Of a DNA stretch of 22,094 nt, positions 800 to 8,631 are shown piece by piece; position 1 is the first letter of the stretch; each line of letters starts with the position of its first letter. The notes below the pieces were generated by a model. That model saw nothing but the letters and a program-made list of their open reading frames with translations, was not told the DNA's origin and searched no databases. The DNA is from a virus, in IMG/VR virus record IMGVR_UViG_3300046836_000329, positions 1-22,094 of that record. The stretch is one strand, 5' to 3'. The position numbers and the translations under genes are program-made.

Positions 800-821
800 G
801 CCTTCCGGCGTGCCGGAAGGC
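800..821 (-). terminator. Perfect palindromic hairpin overlapping the last stop codon
   Basis: GCCTTCCGGC (800-809) and GCCGGAAGGC (812-821) form a perfect 10-bp arm pair around a 2-nt centre. It overlaps the TAG of the last leftward gene and lies 12 nt before the intrinsic terminator. There is no U tract, so it may protect the mRNA 3' end or assist the terminator. Confidence 0.5.
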
Positions 822-1015
822 TATCCCCGCCGATCCTGCATCTTCTGTCCGATCTCACGATACTCCGCGAAGTAATCCGCGAAGGCATCGCGCAACCGGG
901 CGGCGTTCCGCTCGTCTGCGGCGGCGTGGGCCTCGGCAATCCGCTTCACGAAGCCACCGCCGTAGACGCGCATCGCTTCGAGCGTGTTAAACAGTTCACC
1001 TTCGTTTGCCGCCAT
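821..1015 (-). CDS. Hypothetical protein (64 aa)
   Basis: Last gene of the leftward operon. Its ATG overlaps the ligase stop codon in a TGATG junction, with GGGAGGATGAG upstream as ribosome binding site; a GTG one codon earlier (1018) is an alternative. The 64-residue product is highly charged and helical, rich in Ala, Glu and Arg, with no recognised domain. Coupling to the ligase suggests co-translation. The stop codon is built into a palindromic hairpin. Confidence 0.65.
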   Translation of the reverse strand: MAANEGELFNTLEAMRVYGGGFVKRIAEAHAAADERNAARLRDAFADYFAEYREIGQKMQDRRG

Positions 1016-1884
1016 CACTCATCCTCCCATCGGTCCCAACGCGGACTCCGGTAGCTGCCGTCAGGCGTCCGCTCGTGATACTCGATGCGCAGCTTGCGTC
1101 CGAGAGCCGGATGCGGCGCCACCATGAAGTCTTCCGTGGGCTGCTCCCGCTCGAAGCGCGCCAACTCCGCATCGTTCTTCGTCTTCACGGTCGTCTCGTG
1201 TCCCTCGTCATCCTTCAAGACGACGGTGGCGAACGGACCGCGATCCTGAATCTTGCCCTTCGAGGGAATGAAGCCCACGATGGTGAGCACCGCGCTCCGA
1301 AGCGCCTTGACCTTGATCCAGTCTTCCTTCGGTCGCTTGCCGGCGGTGTAACGCGACGCACGGCGCTTGATGATCAAGCCTTCGCCGTCTCGCGCCCAGA
1401 CCGCTTTGAGGAGCAAGTGCATGTGGTCCTCATCGGCCAGTTCGGTTGAGAGCGAGAGTTTCACCGCGCGAGACTGCAACCGCTCACGGCTGAAAATCTC
1501 GCGAAGGTATTCGCGGCGGCGGTCATACGTCTGCGCAGCGATGCTGACGCCCAGAACCTCGATGAGGTCGAAGATCGTGAAGACGAGATCAGGGCCGTTC
1601 ACAATCTCCGTGACGCCGTAGCTACGTTTGCCGGGCACGTTCAGTTCGCCATCGTACACGCCATCCGGGAATTGTGATAGCGCCTCGATGAGATGCGGAG
1701 GGAGAACGCGCTCCAATCCGTTCCGGCTCCACGCCTGCACGCGCGTGCCGCCGATACGAGCGATGAGACGATGGCCGTCAAACTTCTCCTCGACGGCGTA
1801 GATGCCCGGACGGATGTCGAATGACTTTGGCATCGGCGCGGCGAGCATCGGGGTGATGAATCCAACGGGGTTGTTCGTTGTCAT
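1015..1884 (-). CDS. ATP-dependent DNA ligase
   Basis: The 289-residue protein has the motifs of the ATP-dependent DNA ligase/nucleotidyltransferase superfamily. Motif I EKFDGHR has the adenylated lysine at K34. Motif III is YDGEL at 77-81, motif IV EGLIIK at 168-173, and motif V WIKVK at 189-193. The C-terminal part (about 197-289) fits an OB fold. Length fits the small phage/bacterial ligases without an N-terminal DNA-binding domain. It would seal nicks during phage DNA replication and repair, using ATP to form ligase-AMP. The ATG directly follows ribozyme copy 1, and GAGGTT within the ribozyme is the ribosome binding site. It should therefore be the first cistron of a ligase plus 64-aa mRNA after cleavage. 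Confidence 0.92.
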   Translation of the reverse strand: MTTNNPVGFITPMLAAPMPKSFDIRPGIYAVEEKFDGHRLIARIGGTRVQAWSRNGLERVLPPHLIEALSQFPDGVYDGELNVPGKRSYGVTEIVNGPDLVFTIFDLIEVLGVSIAAQTYDRRREYLREIFSRERLQSRAVKLSLSTELADEDHMHLLLKAVWARDGEGLIIKRRASRYTAGKRPKEDWIKVKALRSAVLTIVGFIPSKGKIQDRGPFATVVLKDDEGHETTVKTKNDAELARFEREQPTEDFMVAPHPALGRKLRIEYHERTPDGSYRSPRWDRWEDE

Positions 1885-1997
1885 GGGAACCTCTTCAGGC
1901 CGGTTGATTCCGGCGACGGCGCACCCGTGTATTCGATTGTGGGCGTCTTATCAAGCAGAGGTAATCGCTCAACCCTCTGCGGCCGTTTCGTGCTCCC
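1885..1997 (-). ncRNA. Type II hammerhead ribozyme, copy 1 (expanded stem III)
   Basis: Read leftward: stem II 3' strand GGGAGCAC (1997-1990), GAAAC, stem III ACGGC/GCCGT, GTC, stem I GCCGG-AATCAA-CCGGC, core CTGAAGA, stem II 5' strand GGTTCCC. Predicted cleavage is between 1915 and 1914. Stem II pairs with one bulged A next to the core. N7 is A. Stem III is interrupted by about 60 nt that contain a 7-bp hairpin (1955-1961/1974-1980). The upstream stop TAA is 2 nt away, and the ligase ATG follows directly. Confidence 0.82.
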
Positions 1998-1999
1998 GC

Positions 2000-2188
2000 T
2001 TACTCGACGTGGAAGTGCCAGCGGAGCGGAGAGCCGCTCAAGCTGTTCAGGTTCTGTTCCGCCTCGAAGACTTTGCGTGCGTCCACGAGTGAGAAGTGGT
2101 CACCCATCTCAGCGACAATCGTCGCGTGCTTCTTGCCCGCTCGATGGACGGTGATAATGAGCTTTGGTGCCTTTGGTTCCTTGTCCAT
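2000..2188 (-). CDS. Hypothetical protein (62 aa)
   Basis: A 62-residue ORF whose ATG overlaps the upstream stop codon in a TAATG junction, indicating translational coupling. The N-terminal third is Lys-rich (KEPKAPKLIITVHRAGKKH); the rest has short beta-strand-like stretches. No known motif is seen. Its stop codon lies 2 nt before the stem II strand of ribozyme copy 1, so it would be the last gene of the two-gene unit 2442-2000. Function unknown. Confidence 0.65.
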   Translation of the reverse strand: MDKEPKAPKLIITVHRAGKKHATIVAEMGDHFSLVDARKVFEAEQNLNSLSGSPLRWHFHVE

Positions 2189-2442
2189 TATCGAACCTCC
2201 CTCACGTCCACCACCTTCACAATCGTCGTGTCGTTGGCGTGCGTGCTCTCGTAGACGTGCTCCACGACCTTCGGATCAGCGTGATCCGTCTCGACGGTCT
2301 CCGTGTACGCCTTCCCGCTGCGACGACGGCTGTCGGCGCGCATCGGGACAACCGTCAGCAGGAACTTACGCGGAGCCTTCTTGACGACTTGGATTTCATC
2401 CGCGTCCATCAGGAACTTTCCGGTGATAGGGTTGTTTGCCAT
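2188..2442 (-). CDS. Hypothetical protein (84 aa)
   Basis: The ATG at 2442 follows ribozyme copy 2 directly. GAGGAG of the ribozyme core and stem II provides the Shine-Dalgarno, which fixes this start; the open frame extends farther upstream only because it reads through the ribozyme. The 84-residue product is Lys/Val/Asp-rich with alternating beta-type segments in the last half. No conserved motif was recognised. It overlaps the next gene by 1 nt. Function unknown. Confidence 0.65.
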   Translation of the reverse strand: MANNPITGKFLMDADEIQVVKKAPRKFLLTVVPMRADSRRRSGKAYTETVETDHADPKVVEHVYESTHANDTTIVKVVDVREVR

Positions 2443-2512
2443 TGGAGTCTCCTCAGGCCGGTTGATTCCGGCGACACGGCCCGGTCGTCCTGGGGCCGTG
2501 TTTCGATCTCCA
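2443..2512 (-). ncRNA. Type II hammerhead ribozyme, copy 2
   Basis: Read leftward: TGGAGATC (stem II 3' strand, 2512-2505), GAAAC, stem III ACACGGCCC/GGGCCGTGT with loop CAGGACGACC, GTC, stem I GCCGG-AATCAA-CCGGC, CTGAGGA, GACTCCA (stem II 5' strand). Predicted cleavage between 2473 and 2472. Stem II is fully Watson-Crick apart from one bulged A, and its sequence differs from every other copy while still pairing. N7 is G. It directly abuts the upstream TGA and the downstream ATG. Confidence 0.88.
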
Positions 2513-2701
2513 TCAGCTGAGCGCTTCCTGCTCAGCCGTCCACAGCAACGTCGCGGCCACGAGGCGGAGGTCATCCGCCTCGTGGTTACCGCCCGTCTTG
2601 TAATGGATCAAGTTCGCGAGCACCTTCGAGGCGGAGACCAGGTATTGCTTCCGCTCCTCGGGTGACGCTTGGTTCCACAATCCCAGAAGTTCCTCGTCCA
2701 T
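2513..2701 (-). CDS. Hypothetical protein (62 aa)
   Basis: A 62-residue ORF beginning 1 nt after the helicase stop codon, with GGAGG of the helicase 3' end as ribosome binding site. The sequence is helical and acidic at the N terminus, with a pattern of Leu/Ala residues (LVSASKVLANLIH, LRLVAATLLW) that suggests a small helical bundle. No recognised family. Its TGA abuts ribozyme copy 2, so it should share an mRNA unit with the helicase. It could assist the helicase, but only its position suggests this. Confidence 0.65.
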   Translation of the reverse strand: MDEELLGLWNQASPEERKQYLVSASKVLANLIHYKTGGNHEADDLRLVAATLLWTAEQEALS

Positions 2702-2702
2702 C

Positions 2703-4208
2703 TCAAACCTCCTTGTAGACGAACACCAGCTCACGCTTCGCCCGCGTGATCGCAACGTAGTGGATGTTACGCTCCTCCTGGTTGTGGTCGCGAATCGTAT
2801 CCCGGAGGACAAACACGCGCTCCGCTTCCAGGCCTTTGGCGCGGTGAACGGACGAGCACGTGATAACGCCGGCAGCGCCCAACCCGTCGTCCGTGAACAA
2901 CGCCTCGATGCGACCGATGACGTCATCAACGCTCTTGGCGCCATCCGTCAGGGAGATCAACATTTCCGCCTGATCGCGAATCGCATCCACCCGATCCTCG
3001 CGCTTCGCCTTGATCATCCTCGCGACTTCCTTCTGCTCCCACGCGGCAATCTTCGCGAGCATGTCCGGGATGGAACGGCCCTTCAGCTTGCGGACCAGCG
3101 CCTTCAGGCCGGAGCCGATATCACGGCCGGCAATCTGCGTGCGCTTGCCGCTCCGCAGGAGCGACATCGCCAGCGAGACGAGCGGCGCGTTCAACCGACT
3201 GAGGATGAAATCGCCGGGGCCAGCGGTGGCGACCAGCTTGCTCAGGTGCAGGCTGGAGACGACGCCGTCAGGATTCTCCGGACCAGCCGTGAATCCCGGC
3301 ACGAACGCCTGAGCCCGCTCGACAATCGAGCGGCCGCAGCGGTAGGTGATCGAGAGACCCAGCTCAGTGGCGTGCAGTTCGCGCTGAAGGCGAGCAATCG
3401 ACTCGCTGTCCGCGCCTCGGAATCCGTAGATGGCCTGGTTGGGGTCACCAACGATGCAGATGCGCCCACGGCAGACGCCTTGGGCAATCTCCAGCTGCGC
3501 CTTCGTCATGTCCTGCGCCTCGTCAACGACGACCAGATCGTATTGCTTGGTCAACCAGCCGTTGCGAACCGGAAGGAAGATCATGTCGGAGCCGTCGATG
3601 CCAGTCACGAGCGGCTTGACCGTCGCGGCCAACTCCATCGCGTCCAGCGCCTTCTGCTCCACGTAGTCGAGCGTGTAGATCGTTCCCAGCCACTCGTCTC
3701 CGGGCTCAAGCTCAAACGTCACGGCCAGTTCCGCGAGTCCCTCACCCATCACGCGAGTGTGCGGAAGGATTTCACGGCCCTTGGTGTGCAGCTTGGAGAC
3801 CAACTTCTTGATCGCGTCCGGTGCGGTCGGTCCACAGACCGACTGCGCGAGCGCGTCAGCGCGGTCAGACGAGAAGTTGACCTTGATGCCCTCCCAGAAC
3901 TTGCGGACGGCTGCGTAGCCTACGCCGTGCAGAGTCTTGGAGACCGCTCCAGGACGCGTCAGGCGCTTGCTCAGTTCGGTCTCGATGCGCTTGTTGTAGG
4001 CGCACACGAGGATAGACGCCTCGGGAGCGCGGTTGACGCCCTCGATGATGGTCGTGGTTTTGCCCGTGCCGGCGAAGGCGACGACGACAAGATTGCCATT
4101 GACGTCGATGTCGATGCGGTAGCTCACATCCGACTTCGAGAACCACGAGAAGATCGCTTCCTGTTCGGCGGACCAGTTGCGGACAACGTTACCAGAGATA
4201 TCAGTCAT
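2703..4208 (-). CDS. UvrD/Rep-type superfamily 1 DNA helicase
   Basis: The 501-residue protein has SF1A helicase motifs in order. An early SAEQEAIF segment is followed by Walker A AFAGTGKTTT (44-53), motif II VVVDEAQD (226-233), and motif III GDPNQAIYGFRGA (254-266). Near the C terminus are motif V-like HRAKGLEAERV and motif VI-like VAITRAKREL. It would use ATP to translocate on single-stranded DNA with 3'-5' polarity, as known for UvrD/PcrA-like enzymes. At about 500 aa it is shorter than cellular UvrD, so the 1B/2B subdomains must be reduced. The ATG at 4208 is 2 nt after ribozyme copy 3, with GAGGTTCCTCC as ribosome binding site. The frame open upstream reads through the ribozyme and is not used. 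Confidence 0.92.
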   Translation of the reverse strand: MTDISGNVVRNWSAEQEAIFSWFSKSDVSYRIDIDVNGNLVVVAFAGTGKTTTIIEGVNRAPEASILVCAYNKRIETELSKRLTRPGAVSKTLHGVGYAAVRKFWEGIKVNFSSDRADALAQSVCGPTAPDAIKKLVSKLHTKGREILPHTRVMGEGLAELAVTFELEPGDEWLGTIYTLDYVEQKALDAMELAATVKPLVTGIDGSDMIFLPVRNGWLTKQYDLVVVDEAQDMTKAQLEIAQGVCRGRICIVGDPNQAIYGFRGADSESIARLQRELHATELGLSITYRCGRSIVERAQAFVPGFTAGPENPDGVVSSLHLSKLVATAGPGDFILSRLNAPLVSLAMSLLRSGKRTQIAGRDIGSGLKALVRKLKGRSIPDMLAKIAAWEQKEVARMIKAKREDRVDAIRDQAEMLISLTDGAKSVDDVIGRIEALFTDDGLGAAGVITCSSVHRAKGLEAERVFVLRDTIRDHNQEERNIHYVAITRAKRELVFVYKEV

Positions 4209-4210
4209 TG

Positions 4211-4285
4211 GAGGAACCTCGTCAGGCCGGTCAATTCCGGCGACGGCTGCGGTGGTCATCCGTTGCAGCCGTTTCGTTATCCCTC
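4211..4285 (-). ncRNA. Type II hammerhead ribozyme, copy 3
   Basis: Read leftward: GAGGGATAAC (stem II 3' strand), GAAAC, stem III ACGGCTGC/GCAGCCGT with loop AACGGATGACCACC, GTC, stem I GCCGG-AATTGA-CCGGC, CTGACGA, GGTTCCTC. Predicted cleavage between 4242 and 4241. Stem II has the G-C pair at the core, a two-A bulge, then seven further pairs. N7 is C. The helicase ATG is 2 nt downstream. Confidence 0.88.
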
Positions 4286-4294
4286 GCGTTCGCA

Positions 4295-4317
4295 CGCTAC
4301 GGTCAGAGACCGTAGCG
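4295..4317 (-). other. Hairpin over the stop codon of the 110-aa gene
   Basis: CGCTACGGTC (4295-4304) and GACCGTAGCG (4308-4317) pair perfectly over 10 bp around a 3-nt loop. The TGA at 4303-4305 is inside it. It lies 10 nt before ribozyme copy 3. It may stabilise the mRNA 3' end or slow terminating ribosomes; no U tract follows. Confidence 0.5.
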
Positions 4318-4635
4318 CTTGTACAGGAACACTTCCGTCTTCAGGAAGTAGTCAATGCCGGCACTCGCCTCCGGCGTCCACTTCGGAGGGAAGAGCGCAT
4401 CCAGGACGGGCATCGCCGGAGAGCCGGCACGACGACGCTGCGTGCGGACTTCCTCGGAGAGCCGATCCGCGTCGTGGACCAGTTCGATGACGTGGGCACG
4501 CGGGAGATCACGACCACCGTTGGCCTCGATGCAGTCTCCGCCGATGTAGTTCCACACGGCGTGCGCTGCACCCTTGAGCAACGAGGCTTCTTCTGCGGAC
4601 AGCGGGAAGAGTTTCGCAAACTGGTTCTTCGTCAT
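4303..4635 (-). CDS. Hypothetical protein (110 aa)
   Basis: The start at 4635 is 1 nt after ribozyme copy 4, with GAGGTG as ribosome binding site inside the ribozyme. The 110-residue product is mostly helical, with short conserved-looking segments (HAVWNYIGGDCIEANGG, RAHVIELVHDADRLSEE). I do not recognise a family; the length and charge fit a soluble cytoplasmic protein. It should be alone on its mRNA between cleavage sites 4 and 3. Its stop codon is buried in a 10-bp hairpin. Function unknown. Confidence 0.65.
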   Translation of the reverse strand: MTKNQFAKLFPLSAEEASLLKGAAHAVWNYIGGDCIEANGGRDLPRAHVIELVHDADRLSEEVRTQRRRAGSPAMPVLDALFPPKWTPEASAGIDYFLKTEVFLYKRYGL

Positions 4636-4636
4636 A

Positions 4637-4700
4637 AGGCACCTCATCAGGCCGGTCAATTCCGGCGACGGGAGCGCGGTGCTCCCGTTTCGTTATGCCC
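4637..4700 (-). ncRNA. Type II hammerhead ribozyme, copy 4 (most compact)
   Basis: Read leftward: GGGCATAAC, GAAAC, stem III ACGGGAGC-ACCGC-GCTCCCGT, GTC, stem I GCCGG-AATTGA-CCGGC, CTGATGA, GGTGCCT. Predicted cleavage between 4667 and 4666. Every core base matches the hammerhead consensus. Its first base is shared with the upstream TAG, and the downstream ATG is 1 nt beyond its end. The whole intercistronic gap is the ribozyme. Confidence 0.9.
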
Positions 4701-5893
4701 TACGAGAGCAGCTTGCGGCTGCTCCCGTTTCCGTTTGTCATTCCACGACGGCCGATGGCCATCGCGTCCGCAGCCGCACGCCCGCGCTCCCGTCCCGCAT
4801 CGTTATTCCGAGCGCGAGAGTGCAGGGAGGAAAGTGTCTTAGAACCACGACGATGACTGAACTTATCGTCGATGTAGTTCTGGACACGGGTCATCGCGCC
4901 GTCCAGCCGGATCAGCGCGGTAGACGTTCCGCCAGCCACCGGAGCCGGAGCCGCCGCCACCATCGCTCTCCGCGCCTCCTCGAAGCGCTCCCGGATACGT
5001 CCCACGAACGCCTCCAGCCACGCCTCGCGGAATCCAATCGACCGGCCTTCAGACTTCTCACGCAGTTCCCGGTCTGACGAGGTTCCGAGTTCACGACGGA
5101 GTTGGTTGCGCCACGCGTTGCGCGCTTCCACCGACATCGTCTCTGCCGCCGCGACCAGGATGCCGTAAGTGTATTCGGCAACCATCGCGTGGGAGCGCGT
5201 TCCGACAAACCAGATCTCATTCGACTTTGCGCGGATCAGGAACTTGCAGAGGTTCGCACGAGCGACAACCGCCGCCAGCGACTCCTGCCACGCCACGCGG
5301 ACCTTCAGTGCGTCCACATCGAACTTCGAGAGGTTCGCTTTCATCTCGATGATCGGGTCATCATCCTTCGCTCTCGCGTAGTCGAGGTCACTCGGATTCA
5401 GTTCGTGTTCGAGGAGCATCCGATTGATCGCGCTGGCGAAGGCTTCCGCCGCCGCCTCGTTACCAATCTTGGCCTCGGAGTCTCGCTGCGCCTGCATCTT
5501 GATCAGCTTGCCGATGATCTTGTCGCGGTGATCTTCGGACTTCTGCGAGTTGCGGAGCGCGGCCAGGAGTTCAAGCGTGAACTCTGCGTGATCGGTCGAG
5601 TGGTCGAAGAAACGAAGATGCGCAAGTTCGTGCGCGGCCGTGTCCCAGACTTCATCCGGCGACATCGGCGCATCGCACCACTCGCCGTTCACCGTGCACC
5701 GAAGCACGAGACGGATACGGCCGTCGTGCGAGCACTCGCCCAGACGGTCCGCCATCCCAGTGGCGGGCATCGTCATCGGTTCGATGGAGGTGAGACGGAG
5801 CCGGTAGTTGCTCGCCACCGTCTTCATCGCGTCTTGAATCTTCGCGAACAACGGAACGTCTTCCACGTGCAGAGGGTAGATGATCTTGGTCAT
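4700..5893 (-). CDS. DUF2786-like protein with HExxH zincin-like motif
   Basis: A 397-residue protein. The N-terminal part carries AAHELAHLRFFDHSTDH, giving H88-E89-x-x-H92 and a further His at 98 (HExxHxxxxxH spacing) plus H102, as in zinc metallopeptidase-like domains. Residues about 125-290 match the layout of DUF2786-type proteins of phages and bacteria: a KLIKMQAQRDSEAKIGNEAA helix, then INRMLLEHELNPSDL and a longer domain with NEIWFVGTRSHAMVAEYTYG. The C-terminal 80 residues are basic and disordered-looking. Proteolytic or structural function is unproven. The start follows ribozyme copy 5, with GAGGTG as ribosome binding site; its TAG overlaps copy 4. It should be a single-gene mRNA after cleavage. 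Confidence 0.75.
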   Translation of the reverse strand: MTKIIYPLHVEDVPLFAKIQDAMKTVASNYRLRLTSIEPMTMPATGMADRLGECSHDGRIRLVLRCTVNGEWCDAPMSPDEVWDTAAHELAHLRFFDHSTDHAEFTLELLAALRNSQKSEDHRDKIIGKLIKMQAQRDSEAKIGNEAAAEAFASAINRMLLEHELNPSDLDYARAKDDDPIIEMKANLSKFDVDALKVRVAWQESLAAVVARANLCKFLIRAKSNEIWFVGTRSHAMVAEYTYGILVAAAETMSVEARNAWRNQLRRELGTSSDRELREKSEGRSIGFREAWLEAFVGRIRERFEEARRAMVAAAPAPVAGGTSTALIRLDGAMTRVQNYIDDKFSHRRGSKTLSSLHSRARNNDAGRERGRAAADAMAIGRRGMTNGNGSSRKLLS

Positions 5894-5898
5894 TTGAG

Positions 5899-5970
5899 GG
5901 CACCTCATCAGGCCGGTCCATTCCGGCGACGAACGGCGGATAATCTGCCGTGCCGTTCGTTTCGTGTGCC
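5899..5970 (-). ncRNA. Type II hammerhead ribozyme, copy 5
   Basis: Read leftward: GGCACAC (stem II 3' strand, 5970-5964), GAAAC, stem III ACGAACGGC/GCCGTTCGT with a 14-nt loop, GTC, stem I GCCGG-AATGGA-CCGGC, CTGATGA, GGTGCC. Predicted cleavage between 5928 and 5927. Stem II is Watson-Crick throughout with a single bulged A. Stem III differs in sequence from all other copies but pairs over 9 bp. The next ATG is 5 nt beyond. Confidence 0.88.
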
Positions 5971-5982
5971 GCGCAGCGAGAA

Positions 5983-6021
5983 CGGAGTGCAGCCGGGGTC
6001 ATCCTCGTTGGCTGCACTCCG
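5983..6021 (-). other. 12-bp hairpin with GGATGAC loop upstream of ribozyme copy 5
   Basis: Arms 5983-5994 and 6010-6021 are perfectly complementary (CGGAGTGCAGCC as read). The leftward loop AACGAGGATGACCCC contains GGATGAC, the same heptamer found in the stem III loops of ribozyme copies 3, 6, 7 and 8. It lies 12 nt from copy 5 and about 11 nt after the stop codon of the 114-aa gene. It could be a 3'-end protector or a protein-binding site. Confidence 0.6.
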
Positions 6022-6032
6022 GTTGGGGAGAC

Positions 6033-6377
6033 TTACTTCTTGACCGCCTTCGGTCCGGTCTTGACGGCGACCGGCTTGCCGGGCACCTTGTCGGTCGAGG
6101 CGGGCAGCGCCGTGGGGCTGGGAACCTCGGTGAAGCGGCTGCCGGTGTTCGCGGTGCGGAGCACCCAGCCCTTCTTCGTCGCGTCCGAGACCAGCTTGTC
6201 GAAGTAGGTCTGCGCATCCGCGCTCTTGTCGGCCGGGAAGACGCTGCGAGCGCCGTTGACCGCCTTCTTGCCGGTCTCACGGACGCGAGCGAAGACGCTG
6301 ATGCCCGTCTTGCCGTCGCGGGCCAGCACGTCGAAGGAAGCGCCGTTGGGGTGGGAGAAACGAGTGGTTGCGCGCAT
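6033..6377 (-). CDS. Hypothetical basic protein (114 aa)
   Basis: The ATG at 6377 has a good ribosome binding site (AAGGTG with 6-nt spacing). It lies 36 nt after ribozyme copy 6, an unusually long leader for this operon. The 114-residue product starts with a compact domain (about 1-75, including a KSADAQTYFDKLVSDATKKG helix). It ends in a Pro/Lys/Ala-rich basic tail that may bind nucleic acid or be unstructured. No known family recognised. It should be a single-gene unit between cleavage sites 6 and 5, and a strong hairpin follows its stop codon. Confidence 0.65.
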   Translation of the reverse strand: MRATTRFSHPNGASFDVLARDGKTGISVFARVRETGKKAVNGARSVFPADKSADAQTYFDKLVSDATKKGWVLRTANTGSRFTEVPSPTALPASTDKVPGKPVAVKTGPKAVKK

Positions 6378-6413
6378 GGGAGTCACCTTGTTCTTTCCGT
6401 CGTTCGTTCTGAG

Positions 6414-6486
6414 GAGGGAACCTCGTCAGGCTGGTTGTCCAGCGACGGCTGCGGTGGTCATCCGTGCAGCCGTTTCGTATCCCCTC
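6414..6486 (-). ncRNA. Type II hammerhead ribozyme, copy 6 (compensated stem I)
   Basis: Read leftward: GAGGGGATAC, GAAAC, stem III ACGGCTGC/GCAGCCGT with loop ACGGATGACCACC, GTC, stem I GCTGG-ACAA-CCAGC, CTGACGA, GGTTCCCTC. Predicted cleavage between 6444 and 6443. Stem I differs from the usual GCCGG/CCGGC by a C-G to U-A exchange on both arms, a true compensatory change. Stem II has nine pairs including the core G-C. The start codon is 36 nt downstream. Confidence 0.88.
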
Positions 6487-6489
6487 AAT

Positions 6490-6684
6490 CTACGCTCGCG
6501 AGCGGATGACCCGGTAGGACCATCCGTGCGCGATTGTCTCGTGGTTCCCGTCGATGTAGCAGACGGTGGTTTGGATGCCGTTTGCAAGATGCAGGTGATC
6601 GACGGAGGCGACGATCCGGCCTCGGAACGTATCACCCGGTCGAATCTCGTGCGAGGCGACGAACGTGGTGAAGAAGGTCGTCAT
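6490..6684 (-). CDS. Hypothetical protein (64 aa)
   Basis: A 64-residue ORF overlapping the upstream gene by an ATGA junction, so translation is probably coupled. The sequence alternates short beta-type stretches (GDTFRGRIVASVDHLHL, QTTVCYIDGNHETIAHGW), suggesting a small beta-barrel. No family assigned. Its TAG lies 3 nt before ribozyme copy 6, making it the last cistron of the 6932-6490 unit. Function unknown. Confidence 0.65.
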   Translation of the reverse strand: MTTFFTTFVASHEIRPGDTFRGRIVASVDHLHLANGIQTTVCYIDGNHETIAHGWSYRVIRSRA

Positions 6685-6932
6685 GACTGTGCCGCCATCT
6701 CAATCGTGAGCTTGGCCTGCACCGCTGCGTTCACGCGGGTGGCGGCCACCGCGACTTCGTGGACGCGGGAGAGAAGGTTGTGCGAGACGTGATCGGAGGC
6801 TGGACGGCCTTTGGCCTCTTCCGCCATCCGGATAATTGAGTCGAGCACGCGCCGATACTCTTCCGTGCGCATCGTCGCTTCCGCTTGGAACTGGTCGAGA
6901 AGGGTCACCATCGCGTTGTTCGTCATCGTCAT
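6681..6932 (-). CDS. Hypothetical helical protein (83 aa)
   Basis: The ATG at 6932 is 1 nt beyond ribozyme copy 7, with GAGGTG from the ribozyme core as Shine-Dalgarno. An alternative in-frame ATG two codons later is possible. The 83-residue product appears all-helical with Ala/Arg/Glu heptad-like spacing, which could form a coiled coil. No recognised domain. It overlaps the next gene by 4 nt. Function unknown. Confidence 0.65.
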   Translation of the reverse strand: MTMTNNAMVTLLDQFQAEATMRTEEYRRVLDSIIRMAEEAKGRPASDHVSHNLLSRVHEVAVAATRVNAAVQAKLTIEMAAQS

Positions 6933-6933
6933 A

Positions 6934-7003
6934 AGGCACCTCATCAGGCCGGTCAATTCCGGCGACGGCGCTGTCGTCATCCTCGCGCCGTTTCGTTATG
7001 CCT
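6934..7003 (-). ncRNA. Type II hammerhead ribozyme, copy 7
   Basis: Read leftward: AGGCATAAC, GAAAC, stem III ACGGCGC/GCGCCGT with loop GAGGATGACGACA, GTC, stem I GCCGG-AATTGA-CCGGC, CTGATGA, GGTGCCT. Predicted cleavage between 6964 and 6963. The A and G of the upstream TAG stop codon are part of the stem II strand. The downstream ATG is 1 nt past the element. Confidence 0.9.
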
Positions 7004-7352
7004 AGAAGGAGGGATCACGATACGTGTTCCGGTAGCCCAGCGCGAGACGCGTGCTGCCCGGAGACCGATGCCACTCGCCACGCTTCGAGAGACGCGCGGC
7101 GTGCTCCGGAGCGTTGGGGTCAGGTTCGTGCGTCCACGTCTGCGACTCGTTCATCCCGTTGCCGGTGCAGGTGGCTTTGTCTTCCCGATACCAGAACGTC
7201 TTCCCGGAGGGAGAGACGCGCGTGATCGTGCCCGCGTAACGATCCGTCCACATCAGGATTGTCACGCCCATCCCAACTTCCGGAACCGGCTGGCCCTTCG
7301 TTCCGCTCATCAGGTAGTTCGTCATCGACACCGTGTCACGTCCAAGTTTCAT
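7002..7352 (-). CDS. Hypothetical protein (116 aa)
   Basis: Begins 1 nt after ribozyme copy 8 (GAGGTG ribosome binding site) and ends with a TAG built into copy 7. The 116-residue protein has an SH3-like beta pattern in its middle (PEVGMGVTILMWTDRYAG, TITRVSPSGKTFWYRED). This pattern is common in small phage proteins that describe a solvent-exposed barrel. The C-terminal part is Arg/Pro/Tyr-rich (LSKRGEWHRSPGSTRLALGY). I cannot assign a function. It is predicted to be a single-gene mRNA between cleavage sites 8 and 7. Confidence 0.65.
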   Translation of the reverse strand: MKLGRDTVSMTNYLMSGTKGQPVPEVGMGVTILMWTDRYAGTITRVSPSGKTFWYREDKATCTGNGMNESQTWTHEPDPNAPEHAARLSKRGEWHRSPGSTRLALGYRNTYRDPSF

Positions 7353-7353
7353 A

Positions 7354-7421
7354 AGGCACCTCATCAGGCCGGTAATCCGGCGACGGTGGCCACGTCATCC
7401 TCGCCACCGTTTCGTATGCCT
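7354..7421 (-). ncRNA. Type II hammerhead ribozyme, copy 8
   Basis: Read leftward: AGGCATAC, GAAAC, stem III ACGGTGGC/GCCACCGT with loop GAGGATGACGTG, GTC, stem I GCCGG-ATTA-CCGGC, CTGATGA, GGTGCCT. Predicted cleavage between 7382 and 7381. Stem III has compensated changes relative to copy 7. The upstream TAG overlaps the stem II strand, and the downstream ATG is 1 nt away. Confidence 0.9.
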
Positions 7422-7632
7422 ACCACTGCACTTGCTCAACGTGTACGTCCAGCGCGTATTTCACCAGCCGCGCATCCGCGTTCAACTTCCTCGCAGCGCG
7501 GTCAGCCACGCTCCGCATCACGAACGTCTGCGCCAACGACTGGAGCCGCACCCACTTGGCGGCTCCCTTGCAGACGTAAAGACGACCACCCAGCGACGGC
7601 GCATCGACGTAGAGCACAAAGCGTTTAGCCAT
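7420..7632 (-). CDS. Hypothetical basic protein (70 aa)
   Basis: A 70-residue ORF whose ATG overlaps the end of the upstream gene by 8 nt (ATGGCTAA), with AGAGGTG as ribosome binding site. It opens with beta-strand-like MAKRFVLYVD and continues with a basic region (RSVADRAARKL). It could be a small nucleic-acid-binding protein, but no family is recognised. Last gene of a three-gene unit starting at 7924. Its TAG is shared with ribozyme copy 8. Confidence 0.62.
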   Translation of the reverse strand: MAKRFVLYVDAPSLGGRLYVCKGAAKWVRLQSLAQTFVMRSVADRAARKLNADARLVKYALDVHVEQVQW

Positions 7633-7789
7633 TGGACACCTCTGAACGAAGCACCCGAACAAATGCGCCATCGTCTCGCGCTTCTTGTCTTACAATCCAC
7701 GAAGCCACCGCAGCTTCCGTCTTGAACGTCTTCTCTCGGACTTCGATGTCGAAACGACGATTGATCCACTGATATTGAATCGTGATCAT
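7625..7789 (-). CDS. Hypothetical protein (54 aa)
   Basis: A short ORF with a strong Shine-Dalgarno (GGGAGGA, 5 nt before ATG), located 12 nt after the stop of a 40-codon gene and overlapping the next start by 8 nt. The 54-residue product begins MITIQYQWINRRFDIEV and has a central helix containing TEAAVASWIVRQEA. This beta-strand plus helix layout suggests a small compact fold. No family recognised. The ribosome binding site and tight packing are the main support. Confidence 0.62.
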   Translation of the reverse strand: MITIQYQWINRRFDIEVREKTFKTEAAVASWIVRQEARDDGAFVRVLRSEVSNG

Positions 7790-7801
7790 GATGTCCTCCC
7801 T

Positions 7802-7924
7802 TTAGCGAACGCGAGCGGCAACGATGCGGTGGGCGTGACCTTCCGTCTTCCGGAGGTCATCGAGTTCACCGAGCATGCAGAGGGAGAAGAGAGCGAAGGC
7901 GAGAGCGAGAACGTGGTTGATCAT
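7802..7924 (-). CDS. Small membrane or secreted peptide (40 aa)
   Basis: A 40-codon ORF starting directly after ribozyme copy 9, with GAGGTT of the ribozyme as Shine-Dalgarno. The first 19 residues (MINHVLALAFALFSLCMLG) form a hydrophobic segment with a Cys at 16. They fit a single membrane span or a signal peptide; the last 20 are charged and helical. No known family. It is the first gene of the leftmost-promoter operon after the leader and would begin the mRNA released by cleavage 9. Support comes from the ribosome binding site, packing and composition. Confidence 0.55.
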   Translation of the reverse strand: MINHVLALAFALFSLCMLGELDDLRKTEGHAHRIVAARVR

Positions 7925-8021
7925 CGGAACCTCGTCAGGCCGGTTCATTCCGGCGACAGCCGATCCGGACGTTCTGCGCGATTCATCGCGTCCGGGAGTG
8001 CATCGGCCGTTTCGTATTCCG
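7925..8021 (-). ncRNA. Type II hammerhead ribozyme, copy 9 (expanded stem III)
   Basis: Read leftward: CGGAATAC (8021-8014), GAAAC, stem III ACGGCCGAT/ATCGGCTGT (8010-8002/7964-7956, one G-U), GTC, stem I GCCGG-AATGAA-CCGGC, CTGACGA, GGTTCCG. Predicted cleavage between 7955 and 7954. Stem III carries an extra nested hairpin (7965-7971/7989-7995). This is the first ribozyme after the promoter, so it would separate the leader region from the first small genes. Its downstream ATG is immediate. Confidence 0.84.
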
Positions 8022-8424
8022 TGTTGCTCGAAGGAGGGCAGCGGCCAGTCGTGCAGGTTACGGGTGGCTCACACAGCGAGTCAGAAGTGACCGCTGCGCT
8101 CTCTTCGTCTTCCGAAGCCCACGCGGTGTTCCAAACCAAGTCCGTGTCTTCGGTCGCGGCCGGTGGAAGATTTTGCTACAACCACTTTCGGCCGCTTTGC
8201 TTTCGGAATCGACCTTGCCCGGAGAGAGGCGGTAAATCGCTCCTGGTCGGCTTTCCGAGGAGAGCGGACGCCTTCGGCCGTTTCGAGGGTTGCACGTTCG
8301 CTGACGACCTCGAAGCGGGTTTGCGTTCGCTTCCTTTCCTTCCCGGCGAGTCCGTAGCGGTTCTTAGCAGTTCCGCGTCGCACCGGGCGATTCGCTCTTC
8401 ACAACGAGCAACCTAACAAGGACA
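8022..8424 (-). other. Leader region between promoter and first ribozyme
   Basis: About 400 nt with no convincing gene. On the leftward strand it contains a 100-codon GTG-start ORF (8081-8383) and, one frame over, a 64-codon TTG-start ORF (7945-8139) that runs through ribozyme copy 9. Neither has a good ribosome binding site. If transcription starts near 8418, this is a long leader or encodes a gene I cannot resolve. Confidence 0.4.
8081..8383 (-). CDS. Doubtful ORF, basic protein
   Basis: A 100-codon leftward ORF just downstream of the promoter, with a GTG start and only a weak upstream purine tract. The product is very rich in Arg and Lys. Its last 25 residues look like out-of-frame translation (RRHGLGLEHRVGFGRRRERS). 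The other leftward frame becomes more protein-like from about 8150 onward (an acidic, Cys-containing stretch). This may mean a frameshifted gene, two overlapping genes or non-coding leader. No family recognised. Confidence 0.28.
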   Translation of the reverse strand: MRRGTAKNRYGLAGKERKRTQTRFEVVSERATLETAEGVRSPRKADQERFTASLRARSIPKAKRPKVVVAKSSTGRDRRHGLGLEHRVGFGRRRERSGHF

Positions 8425-8453
8425 ATCATACGCGCCAGCGCAGTGCGTTACAA
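8425..8453 (-). promoter_or_regulatory. Sigma70-like promoter of the ribozyme operon
   Basis: Leftward -35 TTGTAA (8453-8448), 17-nt spacer, -10 TATGAT (8430-8425). Matches to TTGACA/TATAAT are 4/6 and 5/6. It is the only good promoter seen between the 8632 gene and the ribozyme-separated genes, so transcription from near 8418 would produce the RNA holding ribozymes 9 to 1. Confidence 0.7.
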
Positions 8454-8561
8454 CCATCCGGAGCAAGAAAAGTCACCACCGCTACAGAAAGTCTCAAGGT
8501 CGTTTAGAATCAACAACTTAGCGGGGACCAGCGCGAAGGTCGAACCGGGCTGGGTCTCTAG

Positions 8562-8583
8562 CCGTCCGTGGGGCCAATCGTCA
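8562..8583 (-). repeat. 22-nt repeat, copy B, in a structured region
   Basis: The leftward TGACGATTGG-C-CCCACGG-A-CGG matches 635-656 at 20 of 22 positions. It follows the 8632 gene by about 50 nt and lies about 110 nt before the promoter. A hairpin with arms 8582-8587 and 8599-8604 (CACGCT/AGCGTG) partly overlaps it. Confidence 0.5.
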
Positions 8584-8631
8584 CGCTCCGCTGGGCGTAG
8601 CGTGTCAGAATCCGTGGGATTGCCCTCCGGT

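Follow-up and report, generated by a model that had tools for sequence, protein, structure and literature searches.

Type II hammerhead ribozymes were described by Perreault et al. (2011), who reported clusters of them flanking single prophage genes and proposed an involvement in RNA processing (PMC3088659). Three tandem phage type II arrays were shown in that study to cleave in vitro, one of them (from Agrobacterium) also in E. coli, and circular RNAs were looked for, with none found (PMC3088659). A review from 2017 stresses the link to phages and treats the role of prokaryotic hammerheads as an open question (PMC6155905). We analyzed a stretch of DNA from an uncultured phage, IMG/VR record IMGVR_UViG_3300046836_000329 (22,094 bases; hereafter the window, labeled G000 in comparisons between phages), in which an earlier note made from the sequence had placed nine type II hammerheads at the intercistronic junctions of an operon. 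Our analysis supports the conclusion that these elements belong to a type II hammerhead subfamily that lies below the Rfam threshold and serves as near-complete operon punctuation. That the nine copies are self-cleaving and act as processing punctuation of this phage operon, which encodes DNA-metabolism and small genes, is the reading we favor, with a probability of roughly 0.7.

Detection and anatomy of the nine hammerheads

An independent descriptor (GAAA, a stem III closed by A15.1-U16.1, H17, a stem I hairpin and CUGANGA) is matched at nine places in the window, all on the minus strand; at copy 4 there is also a nested alternative match. In 50 Markov shuffles the descriptor gives no matches. 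A covariance model trained on 19 copies from other phages only, with the window left out, likewise returns exactly nine copies (51.8-70 bits, E 5.5e-14 to 1.3e-19); its tenth-ranked match in the window reaches 13.3 bits (E 0.048), and the remaining 14 kb of the window contain no copies outside the array. Both searches recover the elements where the earlier note had located them. Numbered along the window, they lie at 1886-1996 (copy 1, upstream of an ATP-dependent DNA ligase gene; predicted cleavage between C17 at 1915 and 1914; 55.1 bits), 2444-2511 (copy 2; 2473/2472; 53.9 bits), 4213-4283 (copy 3, upstream of a UvrD-like helicase gene; 4242/4241; 62.3 bits), 4638-4699 (copy 4; 4667/4666; 70 bits), 5899-5970 (copy 5; 5928/5927; 69.9 bits), 6417-6483 (copy 6, upstream of a WGR-like gene; 6444/6443; 51.8 bits), 6935-7002 (copy 7; 6964/6963), 7355-7420 (copy 8; 7382/7381) and 7926-8020 (copy 9, at the head of the array; 7955/7954; 63.5 bits).

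All nine copies carry the core of the hammerhead class (C3UGANGA9, G12AAA15.1, the A15.1-U16.1 pair and H17 at a three-helix junction) and display the type II topology, in which loops close stems I and III and stem II is open to the flanks. Stem I typically reads GCCGG-AAUNRA-CCGGC and is compensated to GCUGG/CCAGC in copy 6, as the earlier note had recognized, while stem III measures 5-14 base pairs (bp) and varies in sequence among most copies. The variability of N7 was also described correctly: it is A, G, C or U among the window copies, and U in 25, C in 14, A in 5 and G in 5 of 49 copies overall. Stems II and III indeed differ between copies yet pair; the depiction of stem II as a plain helix, however, has to be corrected, as in 9/9 window copies an outer helix of 4 bp is followed by an internal loop, formed by a YA or YAA bulge facing G10.2, and then by a C11.1-G10.1 pair (class A). 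In a second form common in the relatives (class B), C11.1 is missing and UA adjoins the core. Most copies combine an AAUNRA-like loop I with a YA or YAA internal loop in stem II, candidates for a tertiary contact. At 4704-4735, within the 3' end of the open reading frame (ORF) upstream of copy 4, stands a partial second copy (GAAACGGGAGCA plus a hairpin) that has the look of a duplication remnant.

Run on the whole window, Rfam gives no match at the gathering threshold and none at E<=1, and on short stretches of the window its Hammerhead_II model (RF02276) scores 17.2-22.8 bits (22.8 being the best among the matches listed) against a cut-off of 37. The same model passes three copies of L013, a cluster of the known type in the same library. 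Because the subfamily scores under the Rfam threshold, standard annotation would miss it. The covariance-model check proposed in the earlier note hence has a divided outcome: the Rfam models all remain below threshold, whereas the subfamily-specific model finds the nine copies.

Covariation was assessed in 46 distinct copies drawn from ten phage contigs and trimmed of their stem III loops. Standard pairs fill 98.4% of the pair cells, double-sided changes occur at 13 of the 15 pairs and the covariation score is 0.644, compared to 0.135 (sd 0.014) for shuffled and at most 0.109 for slid controls; as the pattern search accepted only faultless stem I pairing together with an exact core, and pairing also guided the choice of register for stem II, the fairest figures are those for stem III and for the model matches. 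Stem III alone shows double changes at 5/6 pairs and is 96% paired. The covariance model tolerates substitutions, and its aligned matches retain the core, the three deviating cores (in G007 and G004) being single-nucleotide insertions. Intrinsic terminators and sigma-70 promoters were rejected as an explanation of the hairpins, as neither occurs there in excess over shuffled sequence. Core, topology, strong covariation and position agree with the reading of the elements as intercistronic junctions, and at the level of sequence the assignment as type II hammerheads at the junctions of a phage operon is supported.

Operon junctions and related phages

The operon (821-7924) comprises 15 co-directional ORFs, and every ribozyme in the window points in the same direction as the genes. 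All eight gaps of more than 14 nucleotides (nt) contain one ribozyme, which occupies 52-97% of the gap, and none of the six junctions that are 14 nt or shorter or overlapping contains one. Copy 9 precedes the first ORF. The statement that the ribozyme touches the stop codon on one side and the start codon on the other applies to copies 1, 2, 4, 7 and 8 (93-97% of the gap) but not to copies 3, 5 and 6, which fill 76, 52 and 65%, respectively.

Relatives were collected by patterns and the covariance model, yielding 53 copies in ten IMG/VR phage contigs (G000 9, G001 13, G002 7, G004 6, G005 9, G006 2, G007 3, G008 1, G009 2, G010 1). The operon with nine copies is not a singleton: the search of related phages that the earlier note recommended places the subfamily in nine other IMG/VR phage contigs, amongst them phages with 13, 9, 7 and 6 copies. 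Many proteins are common to G000, G001, G002 and G004. Between phages we find 13 homologous pairs of ribozyme-preceded genes at 28-59% protein identity, including the helicase (59%, G000/G004), the DUF7168 gene (32%, G000/G005) and the first ORF (44%, G000/G001); the WGR-like gene is ribozyme-preceded in G000, G001, G002 and G005 (29-57% identity). A loose DNA pattern, a second pattern and a genome-collection pattern returned mostly or solely chance matches. Short BLAST matches in cultured phages were set aside, since the intergenic match examined, in Ochrobactrum phage POA1180, lacks CUGANGA although a stem I hairpin is present.

In the direction of transcription, the array starts with a 40-amino-acid (aa) ORF (7802-7924, minus strand, as are all the following), whose homologue in G001 also comes after a ribozyme, and continues with ORFs of 54 aa (7625-7789), 70 aa (7420-7632), 116 aa (7002-7352), 83 aa (6681-6932), 64 aa (6490-6684) and 117 aa (6033-6386), the last with a weak match to the WGR domain and ribozyme-preceded homologues in G001, G002 and G005. 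These are followed by a 397-aa protein (4700-5893; DUF7168/phrog_421), a 110-aa ORF with a ribozyme-preceded homologue in G004 (4303-4635), the UvrD-like DNA helicase (501 aa; 2703-4208), likewise behind a ribozyme in G004, ORFs of 62 aa (2513-2701), 84 aa (2188-2442) and 62 aa (2000-2188), the ATP-dependent DNA ligase assigned by profile (289 aa; 1015-1884) and a 65-aa ORF overlapping the ligase stop codon (821-1018). Among the small ORFs scanned, no profile matches were obtained. A perfect GC-rich hairpin (GGAGTGCAGCC..GGCTGCACTCC) at 5975-6012 stands in a gap where the ribozyme does not reach the stop codon, and similar hairpins precede single copies in G001 and G002. Upstream of the array, some 600 bases without a convincing gene (8022-8630) may contain the operon promoter; a weak sigma-70-like site at 8453-8425 is not above chance.

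Translation signals and the proposed processing

The picture of the ribozyme as the junction itself fits, but it overlooked that the Shine-Dalgarno (SD) sequence, and often the stop codon, is part of the ribozyme. The start codon lies 6-14 nt past A9 in 47/49 copies; the two that deviate, in G000 and G001, both stand before the WGR-like gene and use a separate SD. In 41/51 copies the best anti-SD match starts at G8 or immediately ahead of it, and six more show a weaker tie there, the SD being composed of the catalytic core and the 3' strand of stem II (G8-A9-G-G-U-G). Within the window it reads GAGGUG in copies 4 (4640-4645), 5, 7 and 8, GAGGU in copies 1 (in core and stem II), 3 and 9, and AGGAG in the core of copy 2; in copy 6 it is separate and downstream. 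On the other side, the upstream stop codon ends at most 9 nt from G12 or shares G12 (UAG-AAA) in 33/45 copies, and in copies 7 and 8 it is a UAG within stem II. In G004 (L175), most copies have the last base of the upstream UAG stop codon coinciding with G12 of the core, and internal loops beside the core are frequent in stem III.

Anatomy, covariation, position and conservation across phages are shown by the sequences; catalysis, processing, stabilization by hairpins and use of the embedded SD we infer as follows. As the polycistronic RNA emerges, each ribozyme would fold at its own junction and cut on the 3' side of C17, at the boundary of stems III and I, converting the early transcript into near-monocistronic mRNAs. 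Shortly beyond its stop codon, the upstream mRNA would terminate in the stem III hairpin, bearing a 2',3'-cyclic phosphate. The downstream mRNA would carry a 5'-OH and open with the stem I hairpin, directly followed by the SD from the former core and stem II 3' strand and then by the start codon. A single element of 65-75 nt could in this manner perform the cut, provide hairpin caps for the 3' and 5' ends and act as ribosome-binding site. The ribozyme may supply its own ribosome-binding site because the cut removes the link for re-initiation, and a terminating ribosome, covering the 5' strand of stem II, could delay cutting.

Several points weigh against this proposal. The ligase and helicase genes differ among relatives in having a preceding ribozyme, and as not all homologous genes are ribozyme-preceded in every relative, no single junction is indispensable. 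The window's thymidylate synthase has its closest cultured-phage matches in Pseudomonas phage M6 and relatives (Yuavirus, 47%), and the model found no copies in the complete genomes of M6 and MMDA13, cultured relatives by thymidylate synthase or helicase; the best E over these two and a 19-kb piece of Rctr197k was 0.11. Folding would also be impeded by a ribosome that terminates at the stop codon within stem II. The pseudoknot between loop I and the 3' tail, a trait of the majority of published type II hammerheads, is absent (longest helix 2.65 observed, 2.78 in mismatched controls), and for this reason rapid cutting at cellular Mg2+ levels cannot be taken for granted. Lastly, partition-function folding gives no support to an unmasking of the SD by cleavage, with a mean unpaired probability of 0.38 before and 0.35 after the cut and a gain above 0.2 in only 4/49 copies.

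In a different explanation, the ribozyme is a translation gate: the SD is hidden in core and stem II and is released either by cleavage or by a ribosome occupying the stop codon in the 5' strand of stem II, which would make the expression of every gene dependent on the cut or on the neighboring gene being translated. The extension of the SD from G8 into stem II and the stop codon in or beside stem II in most copies would suit such a gate, as would the separate downstream SD in 14/15 of the other phage type II hammerheads examined; as the predicted accessibility does not rise on average and the two copies before the WGR-like gene use a separate SD, we consider it unlikely. Slightly more probable, though still unlikely, is the idea that a phage lineage employs hammerheads as a complete stop-cut-start module, in which stop codon, cleavage site and SD are fused in one RNA fold and self-cleavage and translation of the neighboring genes control each other.

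The elements might instead be compact intercistronic spacers, whose hairpins protect ends or insulate translation while the hammerhead fold is a relic, slow or non-cutting. GC-rich hairpins and the core insertions in some relatives' copies (GAUAA and CUGAACGA, both in G007) are compatible with this; it is nevertheless improbable, since the core is intact in 9/9 window copies while compensatory change turns the stems over, and plain hairpins are not expected to retain exactly A15.1-U16.1 and C17. We give slightly less credit still to a selfish or homogenizing repeat that spreads to gene borders inside phage genomes. Copies from one genome resemble each other more (0.828) than copies from different genomes do (0.737; permutation p<0.0005), which indicates that spread or homogenization within genomes also occurs, and a partial duplicate beside copy 4 and a tandem 5' half in G009 point the same way; against it, the association of gene and ribozyme is kept across strongly diverged phages and every gap is filled in the direction of the genes, and spread and function are not mutually exclusive. 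Ends bearing a 5'-OH and a 2',3'-cyclic phosphate suit RtcB-type ligation. Despite this compatible chemistry, it is very improbable that linear units, freed by cleavage at two consecutive ribozymes, are then ligated into circular mRNAs, as profiles identify the ligase of the operon as a DNA ligase and the 2011 search of phage arrays found no circles (PMC3088659).

The ribozymes in every gap of more than 14 nt, their persistence at some of the same genes across strongly diverged phages and their fusion with stop codon and SD suggest that they function in the processing and translation of mRNA, a role for which the many natural copies allow a direct test.

Relation to known ribozymes

The window subfamily shares with the described type II hammerheads (RF02276; PMC3088659) the catalytic core, the open stem II topology and the place flanking single phage genes. 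It differs in its score under that model (17-23 bits against a cut-off of 37), in having the AAUNRA stem I loop and the YA internal loop of stem II without the pseudoknot of loop I and 3' tail, in carrying the SD inside the ribozyme, and in array size, with 6-13 copies per array in five phages as opposed to the small tandem arrays tested there. A parallel in density is L029 (IMGVR_UViG_3300027784_000510), in which about nine hammerheads of a single phage lie between tiny genes; these, however, have other stems, a conserved 3' tail and a separate SD 7-34 nt downstream. This second, unrelated dense array spans 7668-10863 of L029, and most of its copies are followed by the conserved tail with a CAGCACUGACGAGUCC-like sequence resembling a hammerhead core strand.

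By eye, the stem I loop AAUNRA and the stem II UA/G internal loop recur in the type III hammerheads of L177/L178 and L180/L189/L191, which are circularly permuted, have an open stem III and occur as single copies; this suggests that one tertiary contact is used in two circular permutations. The theta ribozymes of gut phages are comparable as self-cleaving RNAs in phage transcripts on the same strand as neighboring genes, but they have a hepatitis delta virus (HDV)-like fold and are tied to tRNAs rather than to messenger junctions (PMC10879173). In the open-access literature searched, no description was found of arrays of comparable density or of embedded SDs. The ribozyme class, its clusters in phages and the idea of processing are known; the density of the array, its conserved synteny and the fusion with translation signals appear to be new.
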